A stretch of DNA of 41,091 nucleotides from the NCBI GenBank assembly GCA_026985385.1, contig JALSQM010000062.1:1-41091 (forward strand), written 5' to 3'. This document shows, one piece after another, positions 19,359-34,086 of the stretch. Each line of letters starts with the position of its first letter. Positions within the stretch are counted from its first letter, which is position 1. Under the pieces are notes generated by a model, which saw only the letters and a list, made by a program, of their open reading frames with translations, had not been told where the DNA came from and did not search any database. The position numbers were made by a program, and so were the translations under genes. Source of the DNA: Acidilobaceae archaeon (GTDB lineage: Archaea; Thermoproteota; Thermoprotei_A; Sulfolobales; Acidilobaceae).

Positions 19359-20000
19359 TTGAGGCTATACCTGGACGTTGAGACCTATAGGCCCCTCGAC
19401 GCGGCCCCCCTCACCGGGGAGAGGCTGATAGCAGTCGGGGTCCTCGAGGATTGGACTGCGTATAAGCCCGAGTCCTCGAGCGTCTGGGATGGCGATAGGG
19501 TTAGGCTGAGACTCTTCACTGAGTGGGGCCTCGGCGGTGAGGCCCGCCTGGTCAGGGCCTTCTACCGGTACCTATACAACATAGTCTCGGGGGGCTCGAG
19601 TGGCTCGATAGACTTCGTCTGCATTGTTGGGTTCAACATACTCAGATACGACATCCCCCTCCTCACACTCAAGGCTGTCGAGTACGGTGTCGGGGACCTC
19701 GCCTGGGCGAGTGGGGTCTGGAGTAGGGCCTTCATAGTCGACCTATTCCAAGTCTACCTGCCGGGTAACTGCATGAGGTTCAAGGGCCACACCCTCCAGT
19801 CCCTGGCGAGGGCAGCCAGGGAGGCCGGCGTCAGCGTAGAGGAGCCCCACGGCAGCGGGGCCGATGTGAGGGCCTGGTACGAGTCTCGGAGGTACTGGGA
19901 TATAGAGGAGCACCTCAAGTGGGATCTGAGGGCGTCCAGGATCCTGGACCTCAACTACCGGAGGATCCTAGGCCACATGACGTCGAGGGGCTGCCCCTAA
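19359..20000 (+). CDS. DnaQ-like 3'-5' exonuclease (DEDD fold)
   Basis: The product carries the three exonuclease motifs of the RNase H-like DEDD family: LYLDVETYRP at the N-terminus (Exo I, DxE), GFNILRYDIPLL near residue 100 (Exo II, N..xxD) and YWDIEEHLKWDLRAS near residue 190 (Exo III-like, ending in D). These resemble the proofreading domain of family B polymerases, but no polymerase domain follows, so it is a stand-alone nuclease of about 213 residues. I chose TTG 19359, since GGGGGAGG lies 8 bases upstream; TTG 19338 would add 7 residues. The TAA stop overlaps the TAG stop of the convergent ABC ATPase gene by four bases. Confidence 0.8.
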   Translation: MRLYLDVETYRPLDAAPLTGERLIAVGVLEDWTAYKPESSSVWDGDRVRLRLFTEWGLGGEARLVRAFYRYLYNIVSGGSSGSIDFVCIVGFNILRYDIPLLTLKAVEYGVGDLAWASGVWSRAFIVDLFQVYLPGNCMRFKGHTLQSLARAAREAGVSVEEPHGSGADVRAWYESRRYWDIEEHLKWDLRASRILDLNYRRILGHMTSRGCP

Positions 20001-20722
20001 CGCTCCATGGAGCCGCCCCTCAGGAGTGAGAGCTCCTCTAGGTATGGCTCCGCGTAGGGGGACTCGAGGAAGCCCCGGGGGCTGCAGGTGCACGCGAGCC
20101 TCCCAGACTCGAGGTATGCTACCCTATCAGCCAGCGCCAGGGCCTCGGGTAAGCTGTGGGTCACGTGGACCGCCGTGAAGCGGAGCCTCTCGTGGAGCTG
20201 GGCTAGGAGCCTCCTACCCTCAATCCTGGCCCTGGGGTCGAGGCTGCTGAGGGGCTCGTCTAGCAGGAGGACCCTGGGCTCCACGACGAGGGCCCTGGCC
20301 AGGGCGACCCTCTGCCTCTCACCCCCGCTGAGGGTTCCGGGCTTCCTCCCGAGGAGGTGTGCTATGCCGAGCCTCTCAGCTATAGCGCGGGCCCTCTCGA
20401 GGGCCTCCCCCCTCGGGATCCCGCGGAGGCGGAGGCCATAGGCTATGTTCTCAGCCACCGTCATGTGGGGGAACAAGGCGTAGTCCTGGGGCACCAGGGC
20501 GACGCCGCGGGCCTCGGGTGGTAGGTATGTGGCGTCCCTGCCCCCTATGAGTATCCTGCCCCTCCTAGGCATCACAAGGCCCGCTATAGCATGTAGGAGG
20601 AGTGTCTTGCCGACGCCGCTGGGCCCCAGGACGACCAGGTACTCCCCCTCGCCCACCTCGAGCCTCTCAACCTCGAGCCTGAAGTCGCCCGCCTCGACTA
20701 GTAGGTCCTCTACCACTATCAA
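19997..20722 (-). CDS. wtpC: Tungstate/molybdate ABC transporter, ATP-binding protein
   Basis: This is the energising subunit of an oxyanion importer. Visible are Walker A GPSGVGKT (~residues 33-40), the Q-loop VALVPQDYALFPHMTV, the signature LSGGERQRVALARAL, Walker B VLLLDEP and the H-loop VHVTHSLPEA. The 241-residue length matches the shorter WtpC/ModC types lacking the C-terminal molybdate-binding TOBE domains. The start is TTG and lies four bases into the permease 3' end, so the genes are translationally coupled. The metal (W rather than Mo) is inferred from the WtpA-like binding protein and the archaeal context; hyperthermophiles commonly use tungsten enzymes. Confidence 0.88.
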   Translation of the reverse strand: MIVVEDLLVEAGDFRLEVERLEVGEGEYLVVLGPSGVGKTLLLHAIAGLVMPRRGRILIGGRDATYLPPEARGVALVPQDYALFPHMTVAENIAYGLRLRGIPRGEALERARAIAERLGIAHLLGRKPGTLSGGERQRVALARALVVEPRVLLLDEPLSSLDPRARIEGRRLLAQLHERLRFTAVHVTHSLPEALALADRVAYLESGRLACTCSPRGFLESPYAEPYLEELSLLRGGSMER

Positions 20723-21507
20723 GACACGAGCACCCTCAGGGCCGTGAATACGCCCAGGGCGAGGGCCGCGTATATCGCCGCGAGGGCCGCCGCGTAGGGG
20801 AGGCCGTATATGCTCAGATACTCTAGTATGAGTATGTTGACGGTCTTGGGGTAGTAGGCCACAACGAGTAGGGCGCCCACCTCGCTGAGGCCCCGCGCCC
20901 AGGCGAGGAGGGATCCCGCTGCGATGCTCCTCAGGGCTAGGGGTAGGCTTATGTCTAGGAACGCCCTCAGCCTGGAGGCACCGAGGGTTCTAGCTACTGC
21001 CTCGAGGCTCTCAGGGATCGATTGGAAGCCCACCTTAACGGTATCCACTAGGAGGGGGGCCGAGACGAACGCCATCACCGCCACCACCCCGAGGAAGTGA
21101 TCCTCCAGGACTAGGCCTAGCCTAGAGAGGCCTCCCCCGAGGAGGCCCCTGGAGCCGTAGGCCTCGAGGATCATTATGCCAGCCACGGTGTGGGGGAGGG
21201 CTAGGGGTATATCCACTAGGGCCTCGACGAGCCTCTTACCCGGGAAGTCGAGCCTAGCCAGGGTGTAGGCCAGCGGGATCCCGAGTACTAGGAGGCCCGA
21301 GAGGGCCGCCGCCGAGGCTAGGAGGGACACCTTGAACGCGGAGACCACCTCACCCCTCAAAGGGCCCCCGAGGAGCCGGGAGGCTACGTGGGGGTCCACC
21401 TTGAGGTAGAGGGCGGCTATTGGCAGGGCTAGGAATAAGACTAGGAGGCTGGAGAGGGCCGCCAGCACCAGTAGGGCGGCCTCAAGCCTATGGGCTCCCC
21501 TCCTCAA
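20719..21507 (-). CDS. wtpB: Tungstate/molybdate ABC transporter, permease
   Basis: A 262-residue membrane protein with about six hydrophobic segments. It carries the EAA loop VARTLGASRLRAFLDISLPL at about residues 175-194, which docks the ATPase, and a typical preceding helix rich in P and L (DIPLALPHTVAG). Length and layout match ModB/WtpB. The start is TTG, 20 bases before the end of the binding-protein gene, and its own end overlaps the ATPase start, giving a compact A-B-C operon on the minus strand. Confidence 0.88.
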   Translation of the reverse strand: MRRGAHRLEAALLVLAALSSLLVLFLALPIAALYLKVDPHVASRLLGGPLRGEVVSAFKVSLLASAAALSGLLVLGIPLAYTLARLDFPGKRLVEALVDIPLALPHTVAGIMILEAYGSRGLLGGGLSRLGLVLEDHFLGVVAVMAFVSAPLLVDTVKVGFQSIPESLEAVARTLGASRLRAFLDISLPLALRSIAAGSLLAWARGLSEVGALLVVAYYPKTVNILILEYLSIYGLPYAAALAAIYAALALGVFTALRVLVS

Positions 21508-22534
21508 CGGCCAGGCCCCCGAGCTGCCCGGGGAGTCTGCCGTAGCCTCTCGGGTGGGTGTAGAATATGAATCCGTGGCTCTCGAAGACCTCCCTGCCGT
21601 GGGTGAGCACGTACCTGACGAACTCTACTGCGTCCCCGGGATCCCTCGCGTTGGAGGGGACCGTTAAGCCGTAGGCTATGGGGGCCATGGCTATAGCCTT
21701 CTCCTGGGGGGTACCGGCTAGTATGTGGACCACGACCCTCCCATATGCGTCTGCCAGGCCCGGATCCCCCAGGTTGGCCCTGGGGGGTAGGGGGGCGTAG
21801 GTGAGGTTGTGCTCTACGGCCTCGCTCTTGTAGAGTATTGCGTAGTCTATCTCCCCCGACTCGAGGAGGGAGAGCAGCTCGACACTCTTAGGCCTCACGA
21901 CTAGTCCTCCCCGGGGCGTGAAGGAGGCCGGTATGTAGATGTGGAGGATCCCGCCCCTCACCTCGTAGCGGGCTCCGGGTATCGAGGCGATAAGTGACTC
22001 CAGGAGCCTCGTGTCGTTGTAGTAGAGGGAGTAGAGCGCTAGGGCCCCCACGGCCCTGTAGCCGCAGGGATCCCTGTTGGGATCCGATGTCCCATAGGAG
22101 GCCCTCCCGGACTCTATGGCCTTGAGGGCCTCCGCCAGGCTACCCCCATGCCCCCTCCAAGCTATGACCATCTCATTGCCGGCGAATACTATGTACCACG
22201 ATGTGAGGTTCGGGTACAGGAATAGGGGTATAAGCCTGTAGTCGGCTACCGCTACAACGTCGCATCTAAGGCCCAGCTGGGATACCTGCCTCACTATATC
22301 GACGCTCCCAGAGAGCTTCAGGAGCACCTTAACCCCCGTCTCACGCTCGTAGCTCTGGGCTAGGCTCTTGAGGGGGAGCCCCAGGCTGCCGGCACTGCAG
22401 ACCACTATCTCCCGGGCGCTGGCCCCCTCGCCCCCAAGCCTGTGCTTGTATGCAGCGAAGCCTCCTAGGAGCGCTGCAGCCACCAGTGCTAGGATCACTA
22501 CTACAGCGATCCTCCTATTCAAGTGGTGAGGCAC
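21488..22534 (-). CDS. wtpA: Tungstate/molybdate-binding protein
   Basis: The extracytoplasmic binding protein delivers the oxyanion to the permease. It starts with a basic stretch (HLNRR) and a hydrophobic segment at about residues 10-30, which acts as signal or membrane anchor. The family blocks follow: IVVCSAGSLGLPLKSLAQSYERET, DVVAVADYRLIP and YGTSDPNRDPCGYRAVGAL, the last typical of WtpA proteins of Archaea. Length (348 aa) is normal. The start is GTG. The minus-strand TATA-like box lies only ~30 bases upstream, so the mRNA may be nearly leaderless. It is the first gene of the operon. Confidence 0.9.
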   Translation of the reverse strand: MPHHLNRRIAVVVILALVAAALLGGFAAYKHRLGGEGASAREIVVCSAGSLGLPLKSLAQSYERETGVKVLLKLSGSVDIVRQVSQLGLRCDVVAVADYRLIPLFLYPNLTSWYIVFAGNEMVIAWRGHGGSLAEALKAIESGRASYGTSDPNRDPCGYRAVGALALYSLYYNDTRLLESLIASIPGARYEVRGGILHIYIPASFTPRGGLVVRPKSVELLSLLESGEIDYAILYKSEAVEHNLTYAPLPPRANLGDPGLADAYGRVVVHILAGTPQEKAIAMAPIAYGLTVPSNARDPGDAVEFVRYVLTHGREVFESHGFIFYTHPRGYGRLPGQLGGLAVEEGSP

Positions 22535-22561
22535 CCATCGTGGATCCCGGGCTCGGGTACA

Positions 22562-22590
22562 TTATAAGCGTTATCCGATAACCGATAACG
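22562..22590 (-). promoter_or_regulatory. wtpA promoter with operator-like palindrome
   Basis: On the minus strand CTTATAAT (about 22562-22569) is a likely box A for wtpA. Immediately upstream of it lies GTTATCCGATAAC (22570-22582), a perfect palindrome around one central base, followed by a further CGATAAC (22583-22589) in tandem. Bound protein would contact the BRE/TATA region and could block initiation. The adjacent ModE-type regulator is the natural candidate binder. Binding is inferred. Confidence 0.6.
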
Positions 22591-22618
22591 AGGGGGAGGA
22601 GCGCTGGGTTTAGAGGGT

Positions 22619-23692
22619 TTAGAGGATCCTCCTACACCTATCCGGGGGTAGCTGGTATCCTGGAAGCTCCCGGGCTAGGCGCTCCAGCCTCCCCGAGCAT
22701 AGGAGCCCGTGGAACTCGGCTAGAGGACCTCGGGGGGGCCACGTGGGGTATAGGAAGTCGAACCACTCCCATGTGACGGGCTGGAAGTGGAGGGCGAGGA
22801 TCCTCGCTGCGGGTTCGATGACTAGGGCTACGTCTGCGTCGCCCCTCGCCACTGCTTCAGCTGCCTCCAAGTGCGTCTTCACCTCGAAGCCCCAACCCCT
22901 CACCCTCCCAGCTAGGCCCCCCGGCTCTGGGGGTAGACCCCGAGACTTCAGGGCGTCCCCGAGCAGCTTCTCGAGTAGAACCCTAGTGCCCGCGCCCCGG
23001 GGCCGGTTGGCGAGCCTTAACCTGCCCGATATGAGGCCCTCCACGGCCTCCTTGACCGTGATGGGATCCCTGGAGGCGAAGCCGACCCTCCTCCTATAGC
23101 CTCGGACGAGCGCGAGGTGCGCGGCCCCGCTGGAGGCTTTAACGTAGGGCCAGTTGTACTCCCCCGTATCGGGGTCTAGGAGGTGTAGCCCCGCCACGTC
23201 CGCGTCGCCGAGTATCACGCTGGCCACGCCGCCCAGGGAGCCCAGCCAGTAGGCCTCCACTGCAACGCCCGAGGAGTGGAGCTCCCCGAGGATCCTCTGG
23301 AGTAGTATGTCGTTGCTCCCCGCATATACGAGCCCCTCCCTCCCCTCGATCCCCCGGGCACGGGGCGCCTGGAATGGGATCCCTGTGAGGGCCTCGTAGG
23401 CCCTCCTGAAGCGTGCTAGTACCTCCCTGCCTAGGGGTGTGAGTCTGGCGCCCCCGCCGCGGGGCCCTCCCCTCCTAGCCTCGACGAGCGGGCCCCCTAG
23501 GAGCCTCGCTGCCCTCGCGAGCCTCTCCCAGAGCCTGGAGTAGGGTATGCCGAGGATCCTCGCAGCCGCGAGGATGGAGCCCCTCTCCTCTATTAGCTGG
23601 AGGGCCGCCGCTAGATCCTCGTCAACGGCTACCTCGCCCGAGCCTGTCACCAGCTCGAGGCGGATCCTCGCTTTGAGGTCGGGCCCCGGCAC
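22619..23692 (-). CDS. ModE-type regulator with periplasmic-binding-protein-like sensor domain
   Basis: Residues ~10-105 form a ModE/LysR-type winged helix-turn-helix: GSGEVAVDEDLAAALQLIEERG, AAARILGIPYSRLWERLARA and ARRGGPRGGGARLTPLG, matching the ModE DNA-binding domain. The remaining ~240 residues resemble a molybdate-binding-protein-like sensor (PBP_like, PF12727): YAGSNDILLQRIL, VASVILGDADVAGLHLLD and ANRPRGAGTRVLLEKLL. This replaces the TOBE (MopI) domains of bacterial ModE. It probably senses cytosolic molybdate or tungstate and controls the wtpABC operon, which follows on the same strand after 84 bases that contain a palindrome. The start is GTG; the divergent fusion gene starts 26 bases away. 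Confidence 0.88.
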   Translation of the reverse strand: MPGPDLKARIRLELVTGSGEVAVDEDLAAALQLIEERGSILAAARILGIPYSRLWERLARAARLLGGPLVEARRGGPRGGGARLTPLGREVLARFRRAYEALTGIPFQAPRARGIEGREGLVYAGSNDILLQRILGELHSSGVAVEAYWLGSLGGVASVILGDADVAGLHLLDPDTGEYNWPYVKASSGAAHLALVRGYRRRVGFASRDPITVKEAVEGLISGRLRLANRPRGAGTRVLLEKLLGDALKSRGLPPEPGGLAGRVRGWGFEVKTHLEAAEAVARGDADVALVIEPAARILALHFQPVTWEWFDFLYPTWPPRGPLAEFHGLLCSGRLERLARELPGYQLPPDRCRRIL

Positions 23693-23718: not shown

Positions 23719-26400
23719 ATGCCTAGGGTTAATACCGGGCCTCCCCAGGGGACTGGGAGGCCGGTAGCCTTGGGGCGTGGGGGGCGCAGGCGTCTGGCGG
23801 TGCTCTCGGCTGTGGCTGCGTGTCTCGTGGTGGTGTCTGCTCTGGGGGTAACCGCGGGTTCCAACGTTATGCCCGCTGTGGCCCCCCCGCCCAGGCTCGT
23901 GTCTGTGAGGGTCTCGCACTACTACGGTGGAGCCATGGCAGCCTTCATATTCAGGGTGGACGACTTCACAGTGGATCCCGCCTACTCGAGGATGCTGCCC
24001 GATAACACGGTCTACCCGACTGAGTGGTTCTACAACTACGAGGACGAGCTGATATCCCATATCACCAGCCGCTACCCATGGTTGAGGGTGACCGCCGGGA
24101 TAATAACAGTGTGCCACTCGGGCGGCTGCGGGGAGAGGTGGAGGCTCTACGCGAGTCTAGCAAGGCTCTACGGCTGGGAGTTGGCCTCCCACTCGAGGTA
24201 CCACGTGAGGCCGCCCAGGAGCCCCAGCGACTACCTGGGCAGCCTCTCCGATATCGAGGGTAATGTGACCGGCTACCGTGTGCTCACCTACATAGAGCCC
24301 TTCGGCCAGGCGACCAGAGGCGAGGTTTCGAACCTATACAGGCACGGTGTTAGAGTGGTCGCCACAACGACCCCCGAGCCGCCTATGCCCCCGGATCTTG
24401 ATGATGGCGCACCCTGGCTGCTGGGCTTCACCGTAAAGGCCTCCGACAGCCTACCCTGGAGGTCGCTCCTCGCAACCGAGCTTGGAGTGGCTATACTCGA
24501 TGGCGGCGTCGTCGTTGTCTACACTCACGCCACCTCCTATGATTGGAGGAGTCCCCAGCACCTGCTGGGCGCCATCGACTACATAGCCTCGACGCTCGAG
24601 CACTACCGCGGGCTTGTCTGGGTAACGACGCCCGGCGAGCTATACTCCTACATCGAGACAGCGTCCAGGGTCACATTGAACTCGAGCATTGAGGGGAACA
24701 CGTTGGTCGTCGACGTTAGTGGAAGCACCCCTAAGGGCCTCTGGAGGATCCCAGTCACAATAGAGGTTGATGGCCTCAAGGAGTCCTGGGTCAGGGGCGT
24801 GTACGTAGATGGCTCGAGGCTTGAGCCCCTAGGGCCGGGGATCCCGTCCATACCTAGAGCAGGCTACTCGTGGGCCTCGGGCAGACTCCTAGTTAGCGTT
24901 TATCCCCCATCGAGGATCCTGATCAAGCTATCACCCGAGGCCCGGGTGGCACTCGCCCCTCAGACGATAACCGCTACTGCTAGGGAGATCGGGAGAGCCA
25001 GGCTGGCGGCCTACACGATCTGGCTGCCCTTCGCGGCCGTGCTCTACACCGCCTACAGGACCGGCGGCGCCACGCTCTTCCGAGACCCGGCCTCCTGGGT
25101 TGAGAGGCGCCGGGGGAGCGCCTCGGGCGCCAGGTACATAGTGCTAATACCCGCTAGGAACGCTGCGTCCACCATAGCGTACTCCCTCCGCTCCGCCATC
25201 TCCCAGACAGTTAAACCCGTCGCTGTAGCCGTGCTGGATGACGCATCCCCCGACGACACTTTGGGGGAGGCCTTAGCGGCGATCGAGGCCTATAACCCGG
25301 TCCTCGCGGGGAAGGGGGTGGGCGAGGGCTTCGAGTATAGGGTTTACAGGCTATCCAGCGGCGTCTCCGTGCTACTGGTAAGGTTCCATAGGCACACCGG
25401 TAAGCCTGGCATGGTGAACGCAGTCCTCAACGGCCCCATGAGGGGCCTCGGCTACGATTACGTCCTAATACTGGACTCCGACACCGTGATAGAGGGGAGG
25501 TACGCGGAGAAGATCCTAGCCGCCATGAGGGGGGAGCCAGGGTACTCGGCCGCCAACGGTGTAGTCCTCCTCTGGAGGCCGGATCGCGGGGGGCGCCTGG
25601 CATGGCTCATAGCGAGGGCGTTTAGGATGGTTGGAACCTTCATACTCACACTCACCATCAGGGTCTTCGAGACCGCCGCCGGGAGCCTCGGGGGACTCAA
25701 CGGGGCCGCCCTCATGGTTGAGAAGAGGCTGCTCGAGAGGCTCGGAGGGCTCCCCAGCTCTACCACGGCTGAGGACGCCGAGTTAACGTGGAGGGCGCAC
25801 TTGGAGGGCTACAGGGTCGGCGTCGTGCCAGACGCTTTCGCCTACACAGTCGACCCCGGAAGCCTAGCGGGTCTCTGGAGGAAGTTCCTGAGAGTCTCTA
25901 CGGGCAGTATCGCCAGCGCCCTCAGGCTGGTGCCACGCCTCCTAGCCAGGGGCAGGCTCCTCCCCCTCGCCTCGATGCTCTACAACAGCTTCGGGGGGAT
26001 CCCGGTCACACTCTCACTCCTACACCTCTCACTCCTAGGCATCGCAGCGGCTCTGGGCCTCCATGTATCAGGGCTTGCGGCGAGGATAGTGCTGGCGCTA
26101 CCCTACACGCCCGCCGCCATAGTGTTGGCCCCCCTCCTCTCCAACCCCCTAGTCTACCTGGGCCTCGTCTACGCCATGGGCGTGGCGGAGTCCGCCCTCC
26201 TCCTGGCGGTGGTGGCCTCCATGTATAGGGGGAACCCCAGGATCAAGAGGTACGCCCTCGGATCCCTGCCATACACCACGCTCCTACCGGTGGTATTCTG
26301 GCTCAGCGCCCTCGCAAGCCTCGCGGCGCTGCCTATAGCGCTCTACAGGCTCGCACGCGGGGGCCTCGAGGCTAGGTGGGAGGTCCCACTATCCTCCTGA
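23719..26400 (+). CDS. Polysaccharide deacetylase-like/glycosyltransferase family 2 fusion, membrane protein
   Basis: An 893-residue fusion. After a basic N-terminus and a hydrophobic anchor (~25-45), residues ~65-310 resemble a NodB/polysaccharide deacetylase: FRVDDF (D81/D82) and HSRYH (158-162) are the metal-ligand positions, and VVYTHATSYDW a later motif. A beta-rich linker and a membrane segment (~435) precede a GT2 domain from ~472, with LIPARNAASTIAYSLRSAI, VLDDASPDD (~505), LILDSDTVIE (~585) and TAEDAELTWRAH (~683). Three to five hydrophobic segments end the protein. The glycan is expected to be a processive beta-linked polymer modified outside the cell, by analogy with Pga/Ica systems. 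The usual QxxRW is replaced by LWRKFLR. The 3' end overlaps the convergent regulator by 29 bases. Confidence 0.82.
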   Translation: MPRVNTGPPQGTGRPVALGRGGRRRLAVLSAVAACLVVVSALGVTAGSNVMPAVAPPPRLVSVRVSHYYGGAMAAFIFRVDDFTVDPAYSRMLPDNTVYPTEWFYNYEDELISHITSRYPWLRVTAGIITVCHSGGCGERWRLYASLARLYGWELASHSRYHVRPPRSPSDYLGSLSDIEGNVTGYRVLTYIEPFGQATRGEVSNLYRHGVRVVATTTPEPPMPPDLDDGAPWLLGFTVKASDSLPWRSLLATELGVAILDGGVVVVYTHATSYDWRSPQHLLGAIDYIASTLEHYRGLVWVTTPGELYSYIETASRVTLNSSIEGNTLVVDVSGSTPKGLWRIPVTIEVDGLKESWVRGVYVDGSRLEPLGPGIPSIPRAGYSWASGRLLVSVYPPSRILIKLSPEARVALAPQTITATAREIGRARLAAYTIWLPFAAVLYTAYRTGGATLFRDPASWVERRRGSASGARYIVLIPARNAASTIAYSLRSAISQTVKPVAVAVLDDASPDDTLGEALAAIEAYNPVLAGKGVGEGFEYRVYRLSSGVSVLLVRFHRHTGKPGMVNAVLNGPMRGLGYDYVLILDSDTVIEGRYAEKILAAMRGEPGYSAANGVVLLWRPDRGGRLAWLIARAFRMVGTFILTLTIRVFETAAGSLGGLNGAALMVEKRLLERLGGLPSSTTAEDAELTWRAHLEGYRVGVVPDAFAYTVDPGSLAGLWRKFLRVSTGSIASALRLVPRLLARGRLLPLASMLYNSFGGIPVTLSLLHLSLLGIAAALGLHVSGLAARIVLALPYTPAAIVLAPLLSNPLVYLGLVYAMGVAESALLLAVVASMYRGNPRIKRYALGSLPYTTLLPVVFWLSALASLAALPIALYRLARGGLEARWEVPLSS

Positions 26401-27031
26401 GGAGGTTGTAGGCCTTAGTGGATTCCCTCGAGTCAACTACTAGTATCGTGTCTAGGTAGCAGGATATGATCTGGGTAACGTTAACCCCATTCGACGCTAG
26501 GTAGCCTGTAACGTAGGCTATGACTCCGGGAGTCTCTATTATGTCGTGGGGGCTCACAATCACTATAGCGGTCTGACCCCCGATTACCTCCAGGGGCTCC
26601 CCCACATTGGAGATTATGGCCTCGGCGTCCTCGGAAGACACTACTACGGTAGCCGTCTTGAAGCCCTGCGTCACCTGGATGAACCTTACTCTCCCAGCAA
26701 GCTCCCCCGCGACCCTGAGCACCCTCGGCAGGGACTCGCCGGGGAAGGTGGCTACCGTTACCGAGTCGTGGACCACGAGGGCTGAGCGCCTGAGGATGGA
26801 TCTAACCCTCTCCACGCCCCCCTCCCTGATACTCTTTGAGAGCCTGTAGAGGGCCATCTTGGCGGCCGCAAAGCTCAGCCTCCTACCCGTGGAAGCCTCT
26901 ACCTCGGCGACCACCTGCCTCGCGAGCTCGCTTAGATTAACGATCCCACGCCGGAGGCACTCGATGAGGCAGGGATCCCTCAGAACCCTCTCTCGAACAG
27001 CCTCTGAGACCACTTCAGCCACTGCAGACAC
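26372..27031 (-). CDS. HTH-ACT domain regulator (probable amino-acid-responsive)
   Basis: The first ~75 residues, including LIECLRRGIVNLSELARQVV and LSFAAAKMALYRLSKSIRE, look like a compact helix-turn-helix seen in small archaeal regulators. The C-terminal ~70 residues carry an ACT-like domain (TPGVIAYVTGYLASNGVNVTQII followed by CYLDTILVVD), a fold that binds amino acids. The central part (VTVATFPGESLPRVL) may be a second ACT-like repeat. The GTG start lies three bases from a perfect 16-bp palindrome, suggesting autoregulation, and the divergent genes are a polar amino acid importer. Regulatory function is inferred; the family could also be a free-standing allosteric subunit. Confidence 0.72.
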   Translation of the reverse strand: MSAVAEVVSEAVRERVLRDPCLIECLRRGIVNLSELARQVVAEVEASTGRRLSFAAAKMALYRLSKSIREGGVERVRSILRRSALVVHDSVTVATFPGESLPRVLRVAGELAGRVRFIQVTQGFKTATVVVSSEDAEAIISNVGEPLEVIGGQTAIVIVSPHDIIETPGVIAYVTGYLASNGVNVTQIISCYLDTILVVDSRESTKAYNLLRRIVGPPT

Positions 27032-27033
27032 CT

Positions 27034-27049
27034 AGTTACATATGTAACT
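27034..27049. promoter_or_regulatory. Perfect 16-bp palindrome between regulator and amino acid transporter
   Basis: AGTTACATATGTAACT reads the same on both strands and lies three bases upstream of the HTH-ACT gene's start. About 15 bases further a looser inverted pair TTACT (27066-27070)/AGTAA (27079-27083) carries a similar half-site. The arrangement suits a dimeric regulator controlling its own gene and the divergent transporter operon. Confidence 0.65.
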
Positions 27050-27128
27050 CTCAAGTATAATAGTGTTACTATCGATTCAGTAAGAATCATAAACCCCCTC
27101 CAGCCGCTGGGGGTGGAGGTGATGTAGA

Positions 27129-27986
27129 GTGCCTGTGTCATCTAAGGTCTTGGGAGTTATAGGTGTTATAATAGCCTTCCTCGTAGGCGTCTTCGCGGGC
27201 GCTCAAGTCATCGGGGCCCACGGGTCGACCGGCCAGGTCCCCCAGGACTGCAAGTTACACTATAACCAGCTCGAGAAGATAAAGGAGAGGGGCGTGCTCA
27301 TAGTTGGCACTAGCGCTGACTGGCCCCCCTACGAGTATGTGACGCCCGACGGGAAATATGCAGGCATAGACATGGAACTAGCCAAGAGGATAGCTGACGC
27401 CCTAGGAGTCAAGCTCGAGGTCAAGGATATGAAGTTCGCCGCGCTCTTCGAGGCCGTCCAGAGGGGTGATGTGGACATTGTGATCGCGGACGTCGCAATG
27501 AAGCCTGGCAGGCTGGCGGCCGTAGACTTCACGATACCCTACAGGTGCGAGTCGGGTAAAGCCATAGTGGTCAGGGCCAGCGACGCCGGCTCCTACAACG
27601 GCTATGAGTGGCTCTACGGCAAGAAGATAGGGGTCCAGCTGGGGACCACCGAGGAGGATCTAGCCAAGAAATACTTCGGGGCCCACTCCACTATAGTCAC
27701 CTTCGACAGGGTATACCCCGAGATGACCATGGCACTCAAGCACGGCCAGATAGACGCCATGATAGTGGCGCCCGACGTGGCTAAGATCATAGTCTCCAAG
27801 GAGAAGGATCTAAAGATAGTCGACCACATACCCTTCTTCAGCTGCAGCGCAGTGGTAGTCCCGAAGTGCGCCTTCAAGCTCAAACAGGAGGTCTCACAGG
27901 TGATCTGGAACCTCAAGCAGAGCGGCGAACTCGACAAGATAGTGGAGGAAGAGGTGTCTAAGTGGCTGGGATCCCAGGCGCCCTAG
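27129..27986 (+). CDS. Polar amino acid ABC transporter, substrate-binding protein
   Basis: A family 3 solute-binding protein (SBP_bac_3). An N-terminal hydrophobic stretch (~7-25) is the signal or anchor. The domain begins about residue 50: KIKERGVLIVGTSADWPPYEYV, then YAGIDMELAKRIADALGVKLE, GDVDIVIADVAMKPGR and VDFTIPYRCESGKAIVV, the standard ligand-pocket order with R and D binding the amino acid's carboxylate and amino groups. Length is 285 aa. The start is GTG behind GGAGGTGATG (27114-27123). Specificity (Arg/His/Lys, Gln or other) cannot be told from sequence. It is the first gene of the importer. Confidence 0.92.
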   Translation: MPVSSKVLGVIGVIIAFLVGVFAGAQVIGAHGSTGQVPQDCKLHYNQLEKIKERGVLIVGTSADWPPYEYVTPDGKYAGIDMELAKRIADALGVKLEVKDMKFAALFEAVQRGDVDIVIADVAMKPGRLAAVDFTIPYRCESGKAIVVRASDAGSYNGYEWLYGKKIGVQLGTTEEDLAKKYFGAHSTIVTFDRVYPEMTMALKHGQIDAMIVAPDVAKIIVSKEKDLKIVDHIPFFSCSAVVVPKCAFKLKQEVSQVIWNLKQSGELDKIVEEEVSKWLGSQAP

Positions 27987-27989
27987 GGC

Positions 27990-28022
27990 GGGGGCTCCTA
28001 GCTAGCCGCGGCTAGCGCCCCC
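27990..28022 (+). promoter_or_regulatory. Strong stem-loop between binding-protein and permease genes
   Basis: GCTAGCCGCGGCTAGC (28001-28016) is a perfect 16-bp palindrome, flanked by GGGGGC (27990-27995) and GCCCCC (28017-28022) that can extend the stem around a small asymmetric bulge. It sits in the 74 bases between the binding-protein stop and the permease start. Such structures often protect the upstream mRNA so the binding protein is made in excess. No T-run follows, so it is not a standard archaeal terminator. Confidence 0.55.
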
Positions 28023-28060
28023 TCTGAGGCCTCCGATAGGCGCATGGGGGTGCCTGGGAG

Positions 28061-28726
28061 TTGATCGACTTGGCCATAGAGTACTCACACCTCCTAGCCG
28101 AGGGACTTGAGAGGACACTCGTAATCGGGGTTGCAAGCTTCACCCTGGGCTTCGCGGTATCGATGGCACTCAGCTTCGCGCGCTTCATGGGCCCCCAGCC
28201 CCTTAGAGCTTTCGCAGAGGCGTACATTGCCTTCATTAGGGGGACCCCCCTGCTGGTGCAGCTTCTCATGCTCTACTTTGGACTGCCCAGTGTAGGGGTG
28301 AGGCTCGACGCCCTCACTGCAGCGATACTAGCGATAGGCCTGAACAGCGGGGCCTACCAGGCCGAGATCATAAGGTCTACAGTGAAGGCTGTGCCCGAGG
28401 AGGAGGTTCTCGTGGGCAAGTCCCTCGGCCTCAGTGATGGCCAGGTGCTGAGGTACGTCATACTACCCCAGGCCGTCAGGAACGCCATACCAGCGCTGAC
28501 AAACGAGTTCGTCACACTACTCAAGGAGAGCGCCCTCGCAAGCGTGATAGGCGTGATGGAGCTGACCAGGGTGGGCGAGTTCATGACCTCCGCCACATTC
28601 AGGGCGCTCGAGTCCTACGTGCTCGTAGCGCTCATCTACCTAGCGGTCTCATACGCCTTCATGGGGGCCTCCAGGGGGGCTGAGAGGATGCTCGCTATAC
28701 CCGGCTTCGAGAGGTGGTCGAGGTGA
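28061..28726 (+). CDS. Polar amino acid ABC transporter, permease
   Basis: A HisM/GlnP-type permease of 221 residues with five or so hydrophobic segments. It has the family's FIRGTPLLVQLLMLYFGLP block (~65-85) and the EAA loop EVLVGKSLGLSDGQVLRYVILPQA (~122-146). Only one permease is encoded, so the transporter is probably a homodimer, as in GlnHPQ. The start is TTG preceded by GGGGGTG. The stop TGA lies inside the GTGA that also starts the ATPase gene. Confidence 0.92.
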   Translation: MIDLAIEYSHLLAEGLERTLVIGVASFTLGFAVSMALSFARFMGPQPLRAFAEAYIAFIRGTPLLVQLLMLYFGLPSVGVRLDALTAAILAIGLNSGAYQAEIIRSTVKAVPEEEVLVGKSLGLSDGQVLRYVILPQAVRNAIPALTNEFVTLLKESALASVIGVMELTRVGEFMTSATFRALESYVLVALIYLAVSYAFMGASRGAERMLAIPGFERWSR

Positions 28727-29478
28727 CCGAGGCCCTCCTAAGGCTTGACGGGGTCAGGGCCGCCTACAACGGTGTCGAGGTCCTACACGGCGTGAGCCTA
28801 GAGCTAGCCCCCTCAGAGAAGCTGGTGATCATGGGGCCAAGCGGCTCCGGTAAGACGACCCTACTAAGGGTCATACCGAGACTCGTAGAGCCCACCGCTG
28901 GCAGGGTGATATTCAGGGGCGTCGACATCACCTCCCTAAGCGAGCCAGAGCTTAGGAGGGTGAGATCCAGGATAGGCTACCTACCCCAGCACTACGGCCT
29001 CTTCCCCCACATGACCGTGCTGGAGAACATAACCCTCCCCCTAAGGGTGGTGAAGGGGATCCCAAGGGGTGAGGCCGAGAGGATAGCGGTGGAGCAGCTC
29101 AAGAGGCTGGGCATAGAAGACCTAGCCGACAGATACCCAGCACAGCTAAGCGGGGGCCAGCAGCAGAGGGCGGCACTCGCCAGGTCACTCGCCATGGATC
29201 CAGACATTCTCCTCCTAGACGAGCCCACAAGCGCCCTAGACCCCGAGTCGAGGCTCGACGTACTAGAAGCACTATACAGCGTTGCAAGGCTGGGGAAGTC
29301 CATGATAATAGTCACACACGAGATAGACTTCGCCCTCCACACAGCCGATAGGCTGGCCTACATGGAGAAGGGAGAGATAATAGCCGAGGGAGAACCACGC
29401 GAGATCGTAACAAGGAGTTCTAGGGTAAGGGAATTCCTATACAGAGTAACAGCCCGCTTGGGAGCACCCAGGCATTAG
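28723..29478 (+). CDS. Polar amino acid ABC transporter, ATP-binding protein
   Basis: A GlnQ/HisP-type ATPase of 251 residues. Visible are Walker A GPSGSGKTT, the Q-loop GYLPQHYGLFPHMTV, the signature LSGGQQQRAALARSL, Walker B ILLLDEP with TSALDPE, and the H-loop VTHEIDFALHTADR. I place the start at GTG 28723, overlapping the permease stop as GTGA with GAGGTGGT (28711-28718) upstream; an earlier GTG at 28714 lies inside that ribosome site. Together with the two preceding genes this completes a one-permease amino acid importer. Confidence 0.92.
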   Translation: MTEALLRLDGVRAAYNGVEVLHGVSLELAPSEKLVIMGPSGSGKTTLLRVIPRLVEPTAGRVIFRGVDITSLSEPELRRVRSRIGYLPQHYGLFPHMTVLENITLPLRVVKGIPRGEAERIAVEQLKRLGIEDLADRYPAQLSGGQQQRAALARSLAMDPDILLLDEPTSALDPESRLDVLEALYSVARLGKSMIIVTHEIDFALHTADRLAYMEKGEIIAEGEPREIVTRSSRVREFLYRVTARLGAPRH

Positions 29479-29504: not shown

Positions 29505-30224
29505 TTATTTGTACCTCTGCTTAGCGCCGAGGTAGACCTCTCTTATCACGGGGTGATTCTTAGCCTCCTCTACCGGTAGCTCAATAACTATCTTACCTGT
29601 TTCAAGTAAGTAGACCCTATCCGCCACTTCTAGCGCCTTCTTAACATTCTGTTCAACGAGCAGTATGGAATGACCCTCCCTTTTTAGCTCCATTATCTTA
29701 TTAAATATTTCGTCTACAACTATCGGCGCGAGCCCCTGCGAGGGCTCATCCATCAGTATTAACTTAGGCCTTGCCATGAGGCTCCTAGCGATGGCTAGCA
29801 TTTGGGCCTCGCCCCCGCTCAGGGTTCGAGCTAGTTGTCCCCTTCTCTCACGCAATCGGGGGAACAGACTGTAAACCTCCTCCAGCCTCTTTTTGATCTC
29901 CTCCCGGCTCCTAGCATTATGCGCTCCCACTATGAGGTTTTCCTCTACTGTGAGGTATGGGAATAGCCTCCTACCCTCAGGCACGTAGCCTAACCCCAGC
30001 TTAGCCCTCTCCCATGGAGGAAGCCCTGTTATGTCCTCGCCATCGAAGACTACTGATCCTTTAACAACGTTGACAAGCCCCATTATTGCCTTAATGAGCG
30101 TGGTCTTACCAGCACCATTACGCCCTATGACAGCGACTACTTCTCCCTCGTCTACTTTAACGGTTACACCCCTGAGAGCAGCTATGGTACCGTAATATAC
30201 ATGTACATCATTAACCGCTAGCAT
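29505..30224 (-). CDS. livF: Branched-chain-type amino acid ABC transporter, ATP-binding protein LivF
   Basis: LivF-type ATPase of about 239 residues. It starts MLAVNDVHVYYG and shows Walker A GRNGAGKTT, the family-typical GYVPEGRRLFPYLTVEENL, the signature LSGGEAQMLAIARSL and Walker B LILMDEP followed by SQGLAP. I prefer ATG 30224 with GGGTGCTGG upstream; GTG 30233 would add three residues. It overlaps livG by 14 bases. The livHMGF genes are less GC-rich than the hut genes before them. Confidence 0.93.
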   Translation of the reverse strand: MLAVNDVHVYYGTIAALRGVTVKVDEGEVVAVIGRNGAGKTTLIKAIMGLVNVVKGSVVFDGEDITGLPPWERAKLGLGYVPEGRRLFPYLTVEENLIVGAHNARSREEIKKRLEEVYSLFPRLRERRGQLARTLSGGEAQMLAIARSLMARPKLILMDEPSQGLAPIVVDEIFNKIMELKREGHSILLVEQNVKKALEVADRVYLLETGKIVIELPVEEAKNHPVIREVYLGAKQRYK

Positions 30225-30972
30225 AGCCAGCACCCAGATAAGCCTCTATGACCCTCCTATCCGATGTTACCTCCTCGGGCTTCCCCTCTGCTAGCACCTC
30301 TCCATAATGGAGCACATACATATAATCGGATAACTCCACAGCTATGGGGACGTTATGTTCTATCAACATCACCGTTAAACCCCCGCGGTTCAACTCCCTA
30401 ACTAAGCCCGCTAGCTCCATGGCCTCCTCAGCGCTCATACCTGCAACCGGCTCATCGAGCATGAGTATTTTAGGGTCGAGAGCTAGGGCCCGAGCGATCT
30501 CGAGCCTCTTCTGGAGACCCAAAGGTAGCTCGCCCGCCTTTCTCTCCACGTAATCTTCCAGACCCACCTTCTTTATTATCTTGTATGCCTCGCCTATTAT
30601 ATCGCTTTTCGTCCTCCTCTTAATGAAACCCATGCCCCTATAGAATCTCCAACCTATCGCCGCTATCACGTTATCTAACACGCTAAGGCTTGGGAATCCC
30701 TGGGGAACCTGGAATGTGAAGCCCACACCCATAGATGCAACAATGTGAGGGGGCTTACCGTCGATTCTCTTACTCTCAAGCAGTACTTCACCCTTAGTGG
30801 GTTTGAGGAAGCCTGCTATGACCCGGAACAATGTAGTCTTGCCAGCGCCGTTAGGACCTATGATACCTGTTATAGAGCCTTTCCTAATTTTTATGGATAC
30901 ATTATTTAACGCTCTGATGCCGCCGAAGTATTTTGTAATATTTCTCGTCTCTAATATTATGTTATTAATCAC
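30211..30972 (-). CDS. livG: Branched-chain-type amino acid ABC transporter, ATP-binding protein LivG
   Basis: LivG-type ATPase of 253 residues. Its Walker A is GPNGAGKTT, followed by VGFTFQVPQGFPSLSVLDN (Q-loop with the LivG-type long spacing), the signature LPLGLQKRLEIARAL in place of canonical LSGGQ, Walker B ILMLDEP with VAGMSAEEAMELA, and the H-loop LIEHN. Two different ATPases, LivG and LivF, energise one importer in this family. The GTG start overlaps the livM 3' end by eight bases. Confidence 0.93.
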   Translation of the reverse strand: MINNIILETRNITKYFGGIRALNNVSIKIRKGSITGIIGPNGAGKTTLFRVIAGFLKPTKGEVLLESKRIDGKPPHIVASMGVGFTFQVPQGFPSLSVLDNVIAAIGWRFYRGMGFIKRRTKSDIIGEAYKIIKKVGLEDYVERKAGELPLGLQKRLEIARALALDPKILMLDEPVAGMSAEEAMELAGLVRELNRGGLTVMLIEHNVPIAVELSDYMYVLHYGEVLAEGKPEEVTSDRRVIEAYLGAGYASG

Positions 30973-31873
30973 CCCTTATACCCCCCGACCAGGCTCTTAG
31001 GATTCTCCGGAGGCTTATCAACCACTTACTCTCTCTGCCTAGTAAGCCCTCGGGTTTGAAGTAGAGCATTAGAACTATTATAGCCGTGTACATGATCATC
31101 CTATACTCCATTAAAGGCCTGAAGATCTCGGGTAGAAGAATTATCATTGCCGAGCCCACTATGGCCCCGACGATTGTGTCCATTCCACCTACGATGCTCA
31201 TCGATAGTATCATAATGGAGTAGGGAAAGGCGAAATCACTGTAAACGATGTAGCCCTTGAAATGCGCTAGTATGCTCCCCGCGACGCCACCATACATAGC
31301 TCCTATAGCGAATGCTAGGATCTTGTATTTCCGCACATCTATTCCGACGCTCTCCGCTACCTCTTCGTTATCCCTTAACGCCTCGAAGGCTAGGCCGAGC
31401 CAGGTTTTGTCTATGTATAGGGCCAAAGCTGCTAGTAGCAGTAATATCGTCCAGGACATAATTGTGTATGCAAAGCCTGTTATCCTCATGCCGAGGAGCG
31501 TGGGTTTAGGTATTCCTATTATGCCGTAGGATCCTCCGAAGAATTTATAGTAGAGGAACACGTAGACCACTATGAAGTTGAAACCTATCGTGGTTATGGC
31601 TAAGAAGTCCTCCCTGAGCCTTATACTTACCACTCCCAGAGCTGCTCCAGCTAGGAATGACGCCAATGCCGCTATAATTATCGCCTCCCAGAAGCTGAGT
31701 GAGTATCTGACCGTGGCTATGGCCGACGCCATAGCCCCCACGCCAACGAAGGCTGCCTGGCCTAGGTTGACCTGACCTGCCCTACCCATCGTTATGTTTA
31801 AGCCGAGGGCTGCTATACCGTAAGCTGCTATTACCGTGAGAAGTGTTGCCGCGTAGCCTGTTGAGATAGGCAC
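30965..31873 (-). CDS. livM: Branched-chain-type amino acid ABC transporter, permease LivM
   Basis: LivM-type permease, 302 residues, with eight or more hydrophobic segments. It has the typical GRAGQVNLGQAAFVGVGA near the N-terminus (~residues 30-47) and the cytoplasmic loop LRDNEEVAESVGIDVRKYKILAFAIGA (~185-211) that contacts the ATPases. The start is GTG with GGGGTGAT four bases upstream. It follows livH by about ten bases. Confidence 0.92.
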   Translation of the reverse strand: MPISTGYAATLLTVIAAYGIAALGLNITMGRAGQVNLGQAAFVGVGAMASAIATVRYSLSFWEAIIIAALASFLAGAALGVVSIRLREDFLAITTIGFNFIVVYVFLYYKFFGGSYGIIGIPKPTLLGMRITGFAYTIMSWTILLLLAALALYIDKTWLGLAFEALRDNEEVAESVGIDVRKYKILAFAIGAMYGGVAGSILAHFKGYIVYSDFAFPYSIMILSMSIVGGMDTIVGAIVGSAMIILLPEIFRPLMEYRMIMYTAIIVLMLYFKPEGLLGRESKWLISLRRILRAWSGGIRGD

Positions 31874-31883
31874 TTTATCACCC

Positions 31884-32759
31884 CTAGACGCGCCTTCCCA
31901 GAAGACCCTGAGGTCTTAGGATTAGGAGTACTATGAGGACGATGAATGCATACGCTTCCCGCGGTAGTATGTAGCTGAAATACGCTGTTAGCAGCTCTTC
32001 GGCCACACCGAGTATTAAGCCTCCTAGGAGTGCTCCCATTACACTGCCAAAGCCTCCGAGGACTATCACAACTAAGGCTTTGTAGGCGACTACATCGCCC
32101 ATGTAGGGCGATATCGATCCATAGTATAGACCATACATTATGGCTGCGATGCCTGCGAAAGCGGAGCCTAGCGCGAAGTTGATGTAGACCACCCGCGGCA
32201 CATTGACGCCTAAGGCCTTCGCTGTTTCCATGTCCTGTGAGAGGGCTTGTGAGGAGATCCCTATCCTCGTCCTCTTTAGCAGTAGCCAGAGGGCTAGGGT
32301 CGATGCTAGAGTAACTAGTATCGCCGTCAGGCCTGTAACATCTATGCGTAACACTCCCCAGTTGAGTGAGCCGCCGAAGCCGTGGAACCTGAACCCCTTA
32401 GGATAATGGCCGAAGACGTTCGCGACTACCTCCTCGGTCAGGAGGTAGATGGCTATGCTGAGCATCAAAGGTATGTGGCGGGGTTTATCCATTAACGGCA
32501 GATATATGGACTTCGCCAGTATCACGCCGTATACTGATGTTGCAGCTATCGACGCTAGAACGGCTATGGCAATGTTGCCTGTAGCGGAGTAGGCTATGTA
32601 CGCAGCATACGCCCCCACAACGAAGACTCCCGCGTGGGCTATGTGGAGTATCTTTAGCAGCCCATAAACCAGCGTCAAGCCTAGAGCCATAGCAGCGTAT
32701 ATCGACCCCACTGCCAGCCCGCTTATTATATGCGCTAACCCTTCTACTAGCGCGCCCAT
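31884..32759 (-). CDS. livH: Branched-chain-type amino acid ABC transporter, permease LivH
   Basis: LivH-type permease of 291 residues with about eight hydrophobic segments. It has GLAVGSIYAAMALGLTLVYG near the start and the ATPase-contact loop ALSQDMETAKALGVNVPRVV (~175-195). I place the start at ATG 32759, six bases after GGGTGATC (32765-32772 on the plus strand); an earlier ATG-frame start at 32777 would place that site inside the gene. A minus-strand TATA-like TATTTTTAAT lies near 32784-32793, so livHMGF may also be transcribed separately from the binding-protein gene. Confidence 0.92.
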   Translation of the reverse strand: MGALVEGLAHIISGLAVGSIYAAMALGLTLVYGLLKILHIAHAGVFVVGAYAAYIAYSATGNIAIAVLASIAATSVYGVILAKSIYLPLMDKPRHIPLMLSIAIYLLTEEVVANVFGHYPKGFRFHGFGGSLNWGVLRIDVTGLTAILVTLASTLALWLLLKRTRIGISSQALSQDMETAKALGVNVPRVVYINFALGSAFAGIAAIMYGLYYGSISPYMGDVVAYKALVVIVLGGFGSVMGALLGGLILGVAEELLTAYFSYILPREAYAFIVLIVLLILRPQGLLGRRV

Positions 32760-32892
32760 ATACCGATCACCCTTCAAGCTAGCATTAAAAATAGACTTCT
32801 GGAAGAAACATGGGAAGCCTCTACTAGACGTGAGGGTTGGTGGCCTACCACACCACCCTTATCCCTTTAGGTTATCTGGGTTACCCGCTAGC

Positions 32893-34086
32893 TCAGGTGC
32901 TAGGCGTTATTAGGTCTTTCTGAGTTATGACAGCGAATCTATGGAACTCCCCGTTCTTCACTATCTGCAGTGTTAGCGTCTTAATAGCGTTACCTCCCTG
33001 CGTGAAGCCGTATATGTGGCCTGCTACCCCGTCGAAGTCATGCAGGTTTCTGAGCGTGCTCATTATCTTGGCTTTATCGAGGCTTCCAGTCATGTTTATA
33101 GCCTTCGCTAAGACCATTACCGCGTCGAAGGCTGAGGCGCCCACCATATCTGGGGGTATCCCCCTAGCCTTCTCGTACTCTTGGATAAACTCCTTGACTA
33201 CGGGATTACTGCTGTCCCTATCGAAGTCGGTGACTATTATCACTCCTTCCGCGTACTTACCTGCTATCTCGATGAACTTGGGTGAGTCGAAGCCCTCTGC
33301 CCCCATTATCTTAGCTTTTATGCCCATCTCTCGAGCCTGCTTGACCGCTATAGCGTGTTCATAGTAGCCGAATATCATGAGTACGTCTAGGCCCTGCGAA
33401 TCCTCTATCGCCTTGATCCTGTTGAGCCACGGCGAGAAGTCCTTCGTCTCGAAGGGGAACTTATCCATGAAAACAACCTTGCCGCCTAGCTTCTCCACAG
33501 TCGCTTTAGCGTTGTCAGCTAGCGCCTTACCGTAGGGATTATCTATATAGAGTATGGCTACCTTTTTCGCTCCAAGCAGTTTAACCGCGGCGTACCCTGC
33601 CACGCGGCCCTCTACCTCAGCCACCATTCCCACCCTTATGACGTAATGTTTACCCTTAGTTATGAGTGGGTTAACGGCGTAGGCTACCACTAGTGGAACG
33701 CCCGAGTTTTCGAAGACATCTGACGCAGCGAGTGTGGTGCTGCTATAGGAGCCGCTTACAGCTGCGACTACACCGTCCTGCTCGATCATCTTATGGGCAA
33801 CAGCTATTGCCTGGTCAGGGTTTAAGGCGTCATCGTAGAGTACTAACTCTACTTTCTTACCTAAGACGCCTCCATGGCTATTTATGTACTTAACCGCGAG
33901 CTCGGCACCCGTTCTTGCCGCTATTCCATCTGCCGACGCAGGCCCCGTTAGTGGAGCGAAGAACCCTATCTTTATCACCTGAGGCCCGCTGGCCTTCCTT
34001 GAATGCCATGCATAGAAGGCTACACCCGCTATGATCACTATTATCACTACGATGGCCGCGGCCAACTTAGCACTTCCAGAGGCCAT
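32893..34086 (-). CDS. Branched-chain-type amino acid ABC transporter, binding protein (LivJ/LivK-like)
   Basis: A type I periplasmic-binding fold (Peripla_BP_6) of 397 residues, exported by an N-terminal hydrophobic anchor (~8-26). The domain runs from VIKIGFFAPLTGPASADG and GAELAVKYINSHGGVLGKKVEL through VAAVSGSYSSTTLAAS (ligand serine/threonine loop) and AILYIDNPYGKALADNA to the C-terminal lobe. The start is ATG after GGGGGG. The ligand could be Leu/Ile/Val, but another amino acid is possible, as the gene follows the histidine-degradation genes on the same strand. An imperfect stem-loop (about 32834-32858) separates it from livH. Confidence 0.92.
   Translation of the reverse strand: MASGSAKLAAAIVVIIVIIAGVAFYAWHSRKASGPQVIKIGFFAPLTGPASADGIAARTGAELAVKYINSHGGVLGKKVELVLYDDALNPDQAIAVAHKMIEQDGVVAAVSGSYSSTTLAASDVFENSGVPLVVAYAVNPLITKGKHYVIRVGMVAEVEGRVAGYAAVKLLGAKKVAILYIDNPYGKALADNAKATVEKLGGKVVFMDKFPFETKDFSPWLNRIKAIEDSQGLDVLMIFGYYEHAIAVKQAREMGIKAKIMGAEGFDSPKFIEIAGKYAEGVIIVTDFDRDSSNPVVKEFIQEYEKARGIPPDMVGASAFDAVMVLAKAINMTGSLDKAKIMSTLRNLHDFDGVAGHIYGFTQGGNAIKTLTLQIVKNGEFHRFAVITQKDLITPST

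Follow-up and report, generated by a model that had tools for sequence, protein, structure and literature searches.

What does a perfect palindrome do in front of a gene for an ACT-domain protein, and which signal would that protein read? The question is raised by contig JALSQM010000062.1 of an Acidilobaceae archaeon (assembly GCA_026985385.1), all 41,091 nucleotides of which were analyzed and are called the window here; the gene stands divergently to an amino acid importer, and a first-pass annotation had proposed an amino-acid-responsive switch. Our results point to an autoregulated arginine-sensing regulator family that would control arginine uptake in apparent auxotrophs and arginine synthesis in prototrophs; we put the probability of this reading at roughly 0.7. 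The regulator family is widespread in Thermoproteota. Operator conservation, architecture, context, and genome content were computed; DNA binding, arginine binding, and the sign of control we infer. The central features are:

26372..27022, minus strand: regulator gene, N-terminal helical domain and tandem ACT domains, 216 amino acids (ACT_7 match, ortholog starts, AlphaFold2 model)
27034..27049, no strand assigned: predicted operator 1, the perfect 16-bp palindrome AGTTACATATGTAACT (14-mer core GTTACATATGTAAC at 27035-27048), conserved upstream of orthologs

The palindrome reported by the first-pass annotation is indeed present at 27034-27049. Palindromicity alone was rejected as evidence, as the window holds four perfect 16-bp palindromes versus 1.22 expected in shuffles; for the 106-bp intergenic region itself, a perfect 16-bp palindrome arises in only 35 of 20,000 shuffles. 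With up to three mismatches allowed, AGTTACATATGTAACT occurs just once in the window (0.01 expected). The proposed search elsewhere in the genome yields no other exact copy in the assembly (G000; 1,247,188 bases), the next best match having three mismatches, although the assembly is 63.85% complete and the uniqueness is hence not absolute.

Regulators were gathered from relatives, three near ones being Acidilobaceae metagenome-assembled genomes, and from a set of 398 genomes belonging to the phylum; orientation was established for 61 loci. An unbiased search of 48 upstream regions sharing no 16-mer, covering every inverted 5-mer pair with spacers 0-12 (13 spacers), returns GTTAC-N4-GTAAC as the top pair, in 6/48 regions; the maximum in 200 dinucleotide-shuffled sets is 3, usually 2. 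Sites with at most two mismatches to GTTACANNTGTAAC occur in 20 of the 48 regions, versus 0.35 expected. Loci with exact copies include members of the window's family, of another family of the order (L104), and of a distant family, f35 (L112, L125, L134); in G015, G023, G233, G250, and G011, the sole exact copy among the matches listed is that in the regulator promoter. The palindrome accompanies the regulator gene across lineages with differing neighbors. The annotation had said that lack of conservation would refute its proposal; upstream of orthologs, the palindrome is conserved well beyond the family. A whole-genome regulon based on the motif with one or two mismatches was rejected as dominated by noise, and sites were retained only with positional or cross-species support.

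At two loci (L102, L136), the operator upstream of the regulator now reads GTTCTGG(G/C)TAGAAC, still palindromic and in the same place; the half-sites look as if altered together. Three further sites resisted interpretation: a perfect GTTACATTTGTAAC at L150 (G005:C87:57-70), 410 bp upstream of an acyl-CoA-dehydrogenase-like open reading frame near the contig end, where no arginine link is seen; a perfect site inside an open reading frame in G057 (L176); and an intergenic GATACATGTGTAAC at G000:C113:8997 (L064).

The regulator's open reading frame spans 26372-27031 on the minus strand, as annotated, and its ACT assignment is confirmed. Its first GTG (27031) lies two bases from the palindrome, and only for this codon does the annotated distance of three bases from the start hold. 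Orthologs start at the residue corresponding to codon 4 of the window frame, usually after a G-rich Shine-Dalgarno-like stretch, and AGGTG, a stretch of this kind, directly precedes the GTG at 27022-27020. Because of the ortholog starts and the AGGTG ahead, this GTG is the likely start, which would place the palindrome end 11 bp upstream of the start codon.

Pfam ACT_7 (PF13840) matches the regulator at 8e-11, with 42 bits versus a curated cut-off of 27, and matches 27/27 aligned orthologs (E up to 0.1). The AlphaFold2 model, built from four sequences (mean predicted local distance difference test score, pLDDT, 85.1), has N-terminal helices followed by two ACT-type units; the beta-alpha-beta-beta-alpha-beta fold is thus present twice, and Foldseek matches of the model are aspartokinase regulatory domains (tandem ACT), with E down to 1.6e-8. 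The tandem ACT domains support the amino-acid-responsive role first suggested for the protein, which context, genome content, and a binding pocket, described below, narrow to arginine. At the N-terminus, DUF7523 (PF24367) gives a partial match below the cut-off (19.8 versus 27 bits, residues 9-41 only), seen at E up to 0.1 in 19/27 aligned orthologs, and Lys55 and Arg60 (K55, R60) are invariant among the aligned orthologs. The all-helical make-up, these two residues, and the conserved palindrome make a DNA-binding helix-turn-helix domain plausible.

The window's genus also has a paralog of the regulator (L030, G000:C38:21-317; L044, G003:C73; L043, G001:C18). Its neighbors are a nuclease-like gene and a DppA-like aminopeptidase-like gene, not arginine genes; GTTACATGTGGAAC lies upstream of it in L044.

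Between the two divergent genes, the layout is as follows:

27054..27061, minus strand: putative regulator TATA box ATTATACT, 5 bp from operator 1 (by consensus match)
27065..27084, no strand assigned: predicted operator 2, degenerate, GTTACTATCGATTCAGTAAG (14-mer register GAATCGATAGTAAC at 27065-27078), by positional conservation
27086..27093, plus strand: putative importer TATA box ATCATAAA, 7 bp downstream of operator 2 (by consensus, weak in the window)
27115..27121, plus strand: Shine-Dalgarno-like GGAGGTG of the importer gene (from the sequence)

The half-site pair that had been noted near the importer promoter, GTTAC-N10-GTAAG, is found at 27065-27084, and its offset is conserved in seven lineages. 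In the window, the 14-mer centre of operator 2 is 30 bp from operator 1; over the seven lineages, no offset among 114 does better than 29-30 bp upstream of operator 1, where the 14-mer has 3.7 mismatches on average versus 8.07 for all offsets (standard deviation 0.89). In L037, operator 2 is nearly perfect, GATACATATGTAAC, and L034, L035, and L036 share the block CTTACTGAATC(G/T)AT(A/G)GTA with the window. The regulator TATA-like box lies between the operators, 4-8 bp before operator 1 in eight relatives; the importer TATA-like box is stronger in relatives, 5-10 bp beyond operator 2. Operator 2 hence sits between two divergent TATA-like boxes. One shared bidirectional TATA box flanked by operators was rejected, as the relatives' spacing fits two separate boxes better. 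A hairpin masking the Shine-Dalgarno sequence in the importer leader scores no better than shuffles (z -0.87).

The divergent amino acid importer is borne out, with a family-3 binding protein, a permease, and an ATPase at 27129-29478:

27129..27986, plus strand: substrate-binding protein, family 3, with ArgBP-like contact residues (Pfam, structure comparison)
28061..28726, plus strand: permease of the importer (Pfam/NCBIfam)
28714..29478, plus strand: ATPase of the importer, GlnQ-like (Pfam/NCBIfam)

The solved structures nearest to the binding protein are 4ymx, 6svf, 4i62, 4zv1, and 4prs; the last, together with 4psh, represents the Thermotoga arginine-binding protein ArgBP (PMC4022495). ArgBP binds arginine with a low nanomolar dissociation constant, does not bind glutamine, and anchors its ligand via, among others, Asp37, Glu42, Gln142, Phe38, Phe76, Arg101, and Asp183 (PMC4022495). 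The counterparts in the window protein are, respectively, D64, E69, Q170, W65, F103, R128, and D209; all seven positions are compatible here and in 16/17 relatives. The Phe38 position is mostly Trp in relatives, and L121 has no counterpart of Asp183. The comparison covered guanidine, aromatic, carboxylate, and amino contacts, with Ser131 left out.

Another perfect 16-bp palindrome of the window, GCTAGCCGCGGCTAGC (28001-28016), lies in the gap that separates the stop of the binding protein (27986) from the permease start (28061); folded into a stem-loop, it could uncouple the amounts of the two proteins. Right after the importer, on the opposite strand, is an operon resembling branched-chain-amino-acid-type ATP-binding cassette (ABC) importers (29505-34086). 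Positions 19997-23692 hold a further ABC importer, also by resemblance of the molybdate/tungstate type, which is adjoined by a regulator with a ModE-like helix-turn-helix and a binding-protein-like part.

The regulator is divergent from the same family-3 importer in 18 of the 61 loci and adjoins argG, argH, carA, or carB in 21, argG and argH being the commonest biosynthetic neighbors; one locus (L053) adjoins LysX/ArgX. Neighbor families were confirmed on representatives. On supported branches of the regulator tree, the importer label changes at least four times and the biosynthesis label at least seven; because both change repeatedly on separate branches, the associations are recurrent. Genome content follows the same division: argG was not found in 11/11 importer-type genomes tested and is present in 15/15 biosynthesis-type genomes tested.

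In L035, the regulator has an agmatinase gene next to it. Three genomes of genus g13 carry a site, with 1, 2, and 1 mismatches, 44-57 bp ahead of a two-gene unit whose second gene is for carbamate kinase (identified by scan in G015, by resemblance in the other two); in G015, this is the genome's only site with one mismatch. Just upstream of the ortholog of this unit's first gene, a related pair, TGTAAC-N7-GTTACA, is conserved in L165 (G000:C113, near 27590-27628) and L166 (G003:C11), and the L165 site may mark a second target in the genome of the window itself. Given these five lines, i.e., gene context, genome content, the pocket of the binding protein, the carbamate-kinase site, and the L035 agmatinase, the ligand of the regulator would be arginine.

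The predicted mechanism is as follows. The N-terminal helical domain, as a dimer, would bind the palindrome GTTACANNTGTAAC, while the tandem ACT domains would bind arginine. Occupancy of operator 1, between the TATA box and the start of the regulator, would block the regulator's own transcription; since this is a usual place for archaeal repression, autorepression through the palindrome appears quite likely. Occupancy of operator 2, between the divergent TATA boxes and just upstream of that of the importer, would set importer expression, and here activation and repression seem to us evenly balanced. Operator 2 and the site of the carbamate-kinase unit are similarly placed, just upstream of TATA, a position from which archaeal regulators can activate, as reported for Tar (PMC6737238); a regulator bound there could instead exclude transcription factor B (TFB). 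In apparent arginine auxotrophs, seemingly including the window lineage, the target would be arginine uptake, with the carbamate-kinase operon as an additional target in one related genus; in prototrophs, the same regulator would act on argG-argH-carA-carB.

Several observations weigh against this arginine-sensing reading. Operator 2 of the window is five mismatches from the consensus, many regulator promoters on the arg side have no recognizable site, and sites with one or two mismatches are genome-wide no commoner than those of a reversed-pattern control. Neither gene set adjoins the regulator in 21/61 loci. On its biosynthesis side, the argG comparison is partly circular, and the missing argG of G000 is weak evidence at 64% completeness. 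In one family of the order, f9 (L116, L127, L129, L130, L133), an ABC importer with a family-5 (peptide-type) binding protein lies close to the regulator or diverges from it, which suggests a further target change. When the N-terminal domain is folded on its own, no PDB fold matches it significantly (best E 1.5).

That last result, together with the lack of any recognized DNA-binding Pfam family, is what speaks for the ACT protein not being a DNA-binding regulator and the palindrome belonging to another protein. The palindrome, however, tracks the regulator gene across lineages with differing neighbors, and Lys55 and Arg60 of the N-terminal domain are invariant, so we regard this as improbable. 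The helix-turn-helix of the first-pass annotation is retained to this extent: the domain is all-helical with two invariant basic residues, but lacks a significant fold match. That the palindrome is a chance feature could be argued from the surplus of perfect palindromes in the window; its sequence and position are, however, conserved in independent lineages, and chance can practically be dismissed.

The other two alternatives keep the regulator and change its ligand or specify its sign. The same switch might answer to a different cationic amino acid, e.g., lysine or ornithine, or to a general nitrogen signal: ACT domains accept many ligands, the neighbor of the regulator in L053 is a LysX-type gene, carAB is used in pyrimidine synthesis too, and one clade lies near a peptide-type importer. 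Yet argG and argH, the leading biosynthetic neighbors, are arginine-specific, and the binding protein retains the guanidine-contacting residues of ArgBP, which is specific for arginine and fails to bind glutamine; another ligand is thus unlikely, if less so than the absence of DNA binding. A stronger contender, to which we give somewhat less than an even chance, is a classical co-repressor form of our own reading, in which the arginine-loaded protein would fill both operators and exclude TATA-binding protein (TBP), TFB, or polymerase at both divergent promoters. The operators flank the regulator TATA box at a fixed 29-30 bp, about three helical turns, operator 2 is near the position of the importer's B recognition element (BRE), and repression of uptake by its own substrate is usual. 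Against this, the importer TATA box of relatives lies 5-10 bp beyond operator 2, the placement used by archaeal activators like Tar (PMC6737238), and the carbamate-kinase site is placed like operator 2.

In Bacteria, ArgR/AhrC sense arginine and control arginine genes by way of palindromic boxes, and the working mode proposed here is similar. For the window regulator, however, the Pfam and NCBIfam matches at E up to 1 include no model of ArgR, its sensor is a tandem ACT of the aspartokinase type, and its operator is different. The tandem ACT fold is shared with aspartokinase regulatory domains and CASTOR1-type proteins, but is joined here to a putative DNA-binding domain, and the CASTOR match is single and weak (1/27 aligned members, to Castor1_N, from the mTORC1 arginine sensor). 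Among archaeal amino-acid regulators, the Lrp type is the best studied class; the regulator differs from Lrp/AsnC proteins (LysM, Sa-Lrp, BarR) in having two ACT_7-type ACT units, not one RAM domain, and has no match to AsnC/Lrp models among Pfam. TrpY, an archaeal amino-acid regulator of Methanothermobacter, has the same divergent arrangement: it binds boxes where the promoter of its own gene overlaps the divergent promoter of its target, and it also represses its own gene (PMC6737238). The target genes of TrpY differ, and the window regulator is far below the cut-off of the TrpY family NF053754 (13.1 versus 180 bits, the match confined to part of the ACT region). Tar (TK0271) of Thermococcus likewise uses a palindrome beside BRE/TATA in amino-acid gene promoters (PMC6737238), but that palindrome is TGGACA-N8-TGTCCA and Tar activates the aromatic pathway; the two are set apart by description, not by sequence comparison. 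Searches of the open-licence literature for the regulator family, DUF7523, and archaeal arginine repressors returned nothing relevant, including no paper on an arginine regulator of the present kind, in agreement with the annotation's remark that this class is little studied in Archaea.

On balance, we lean towards an undescribed Thermoproteota family of arginine regulators, a functional counterpart of ArgR built from a DNA-binding domain unrelated to that of ArgR and an aspartokinase-type tandem ACT sensor, which would have kept its operator across distant lineages while its target was repeatedly swapped between synthesis and uptake after pathway loss. One purified protein and a few promoters would suffice to test the predictions directly. 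If true, they would link an unnamed regulator family present in many Thermoproteota to its ligand, operator, and target genes, and would make it a natural experiment in which one regulator and one operator serve a target that alternates between synthesis and uptake.

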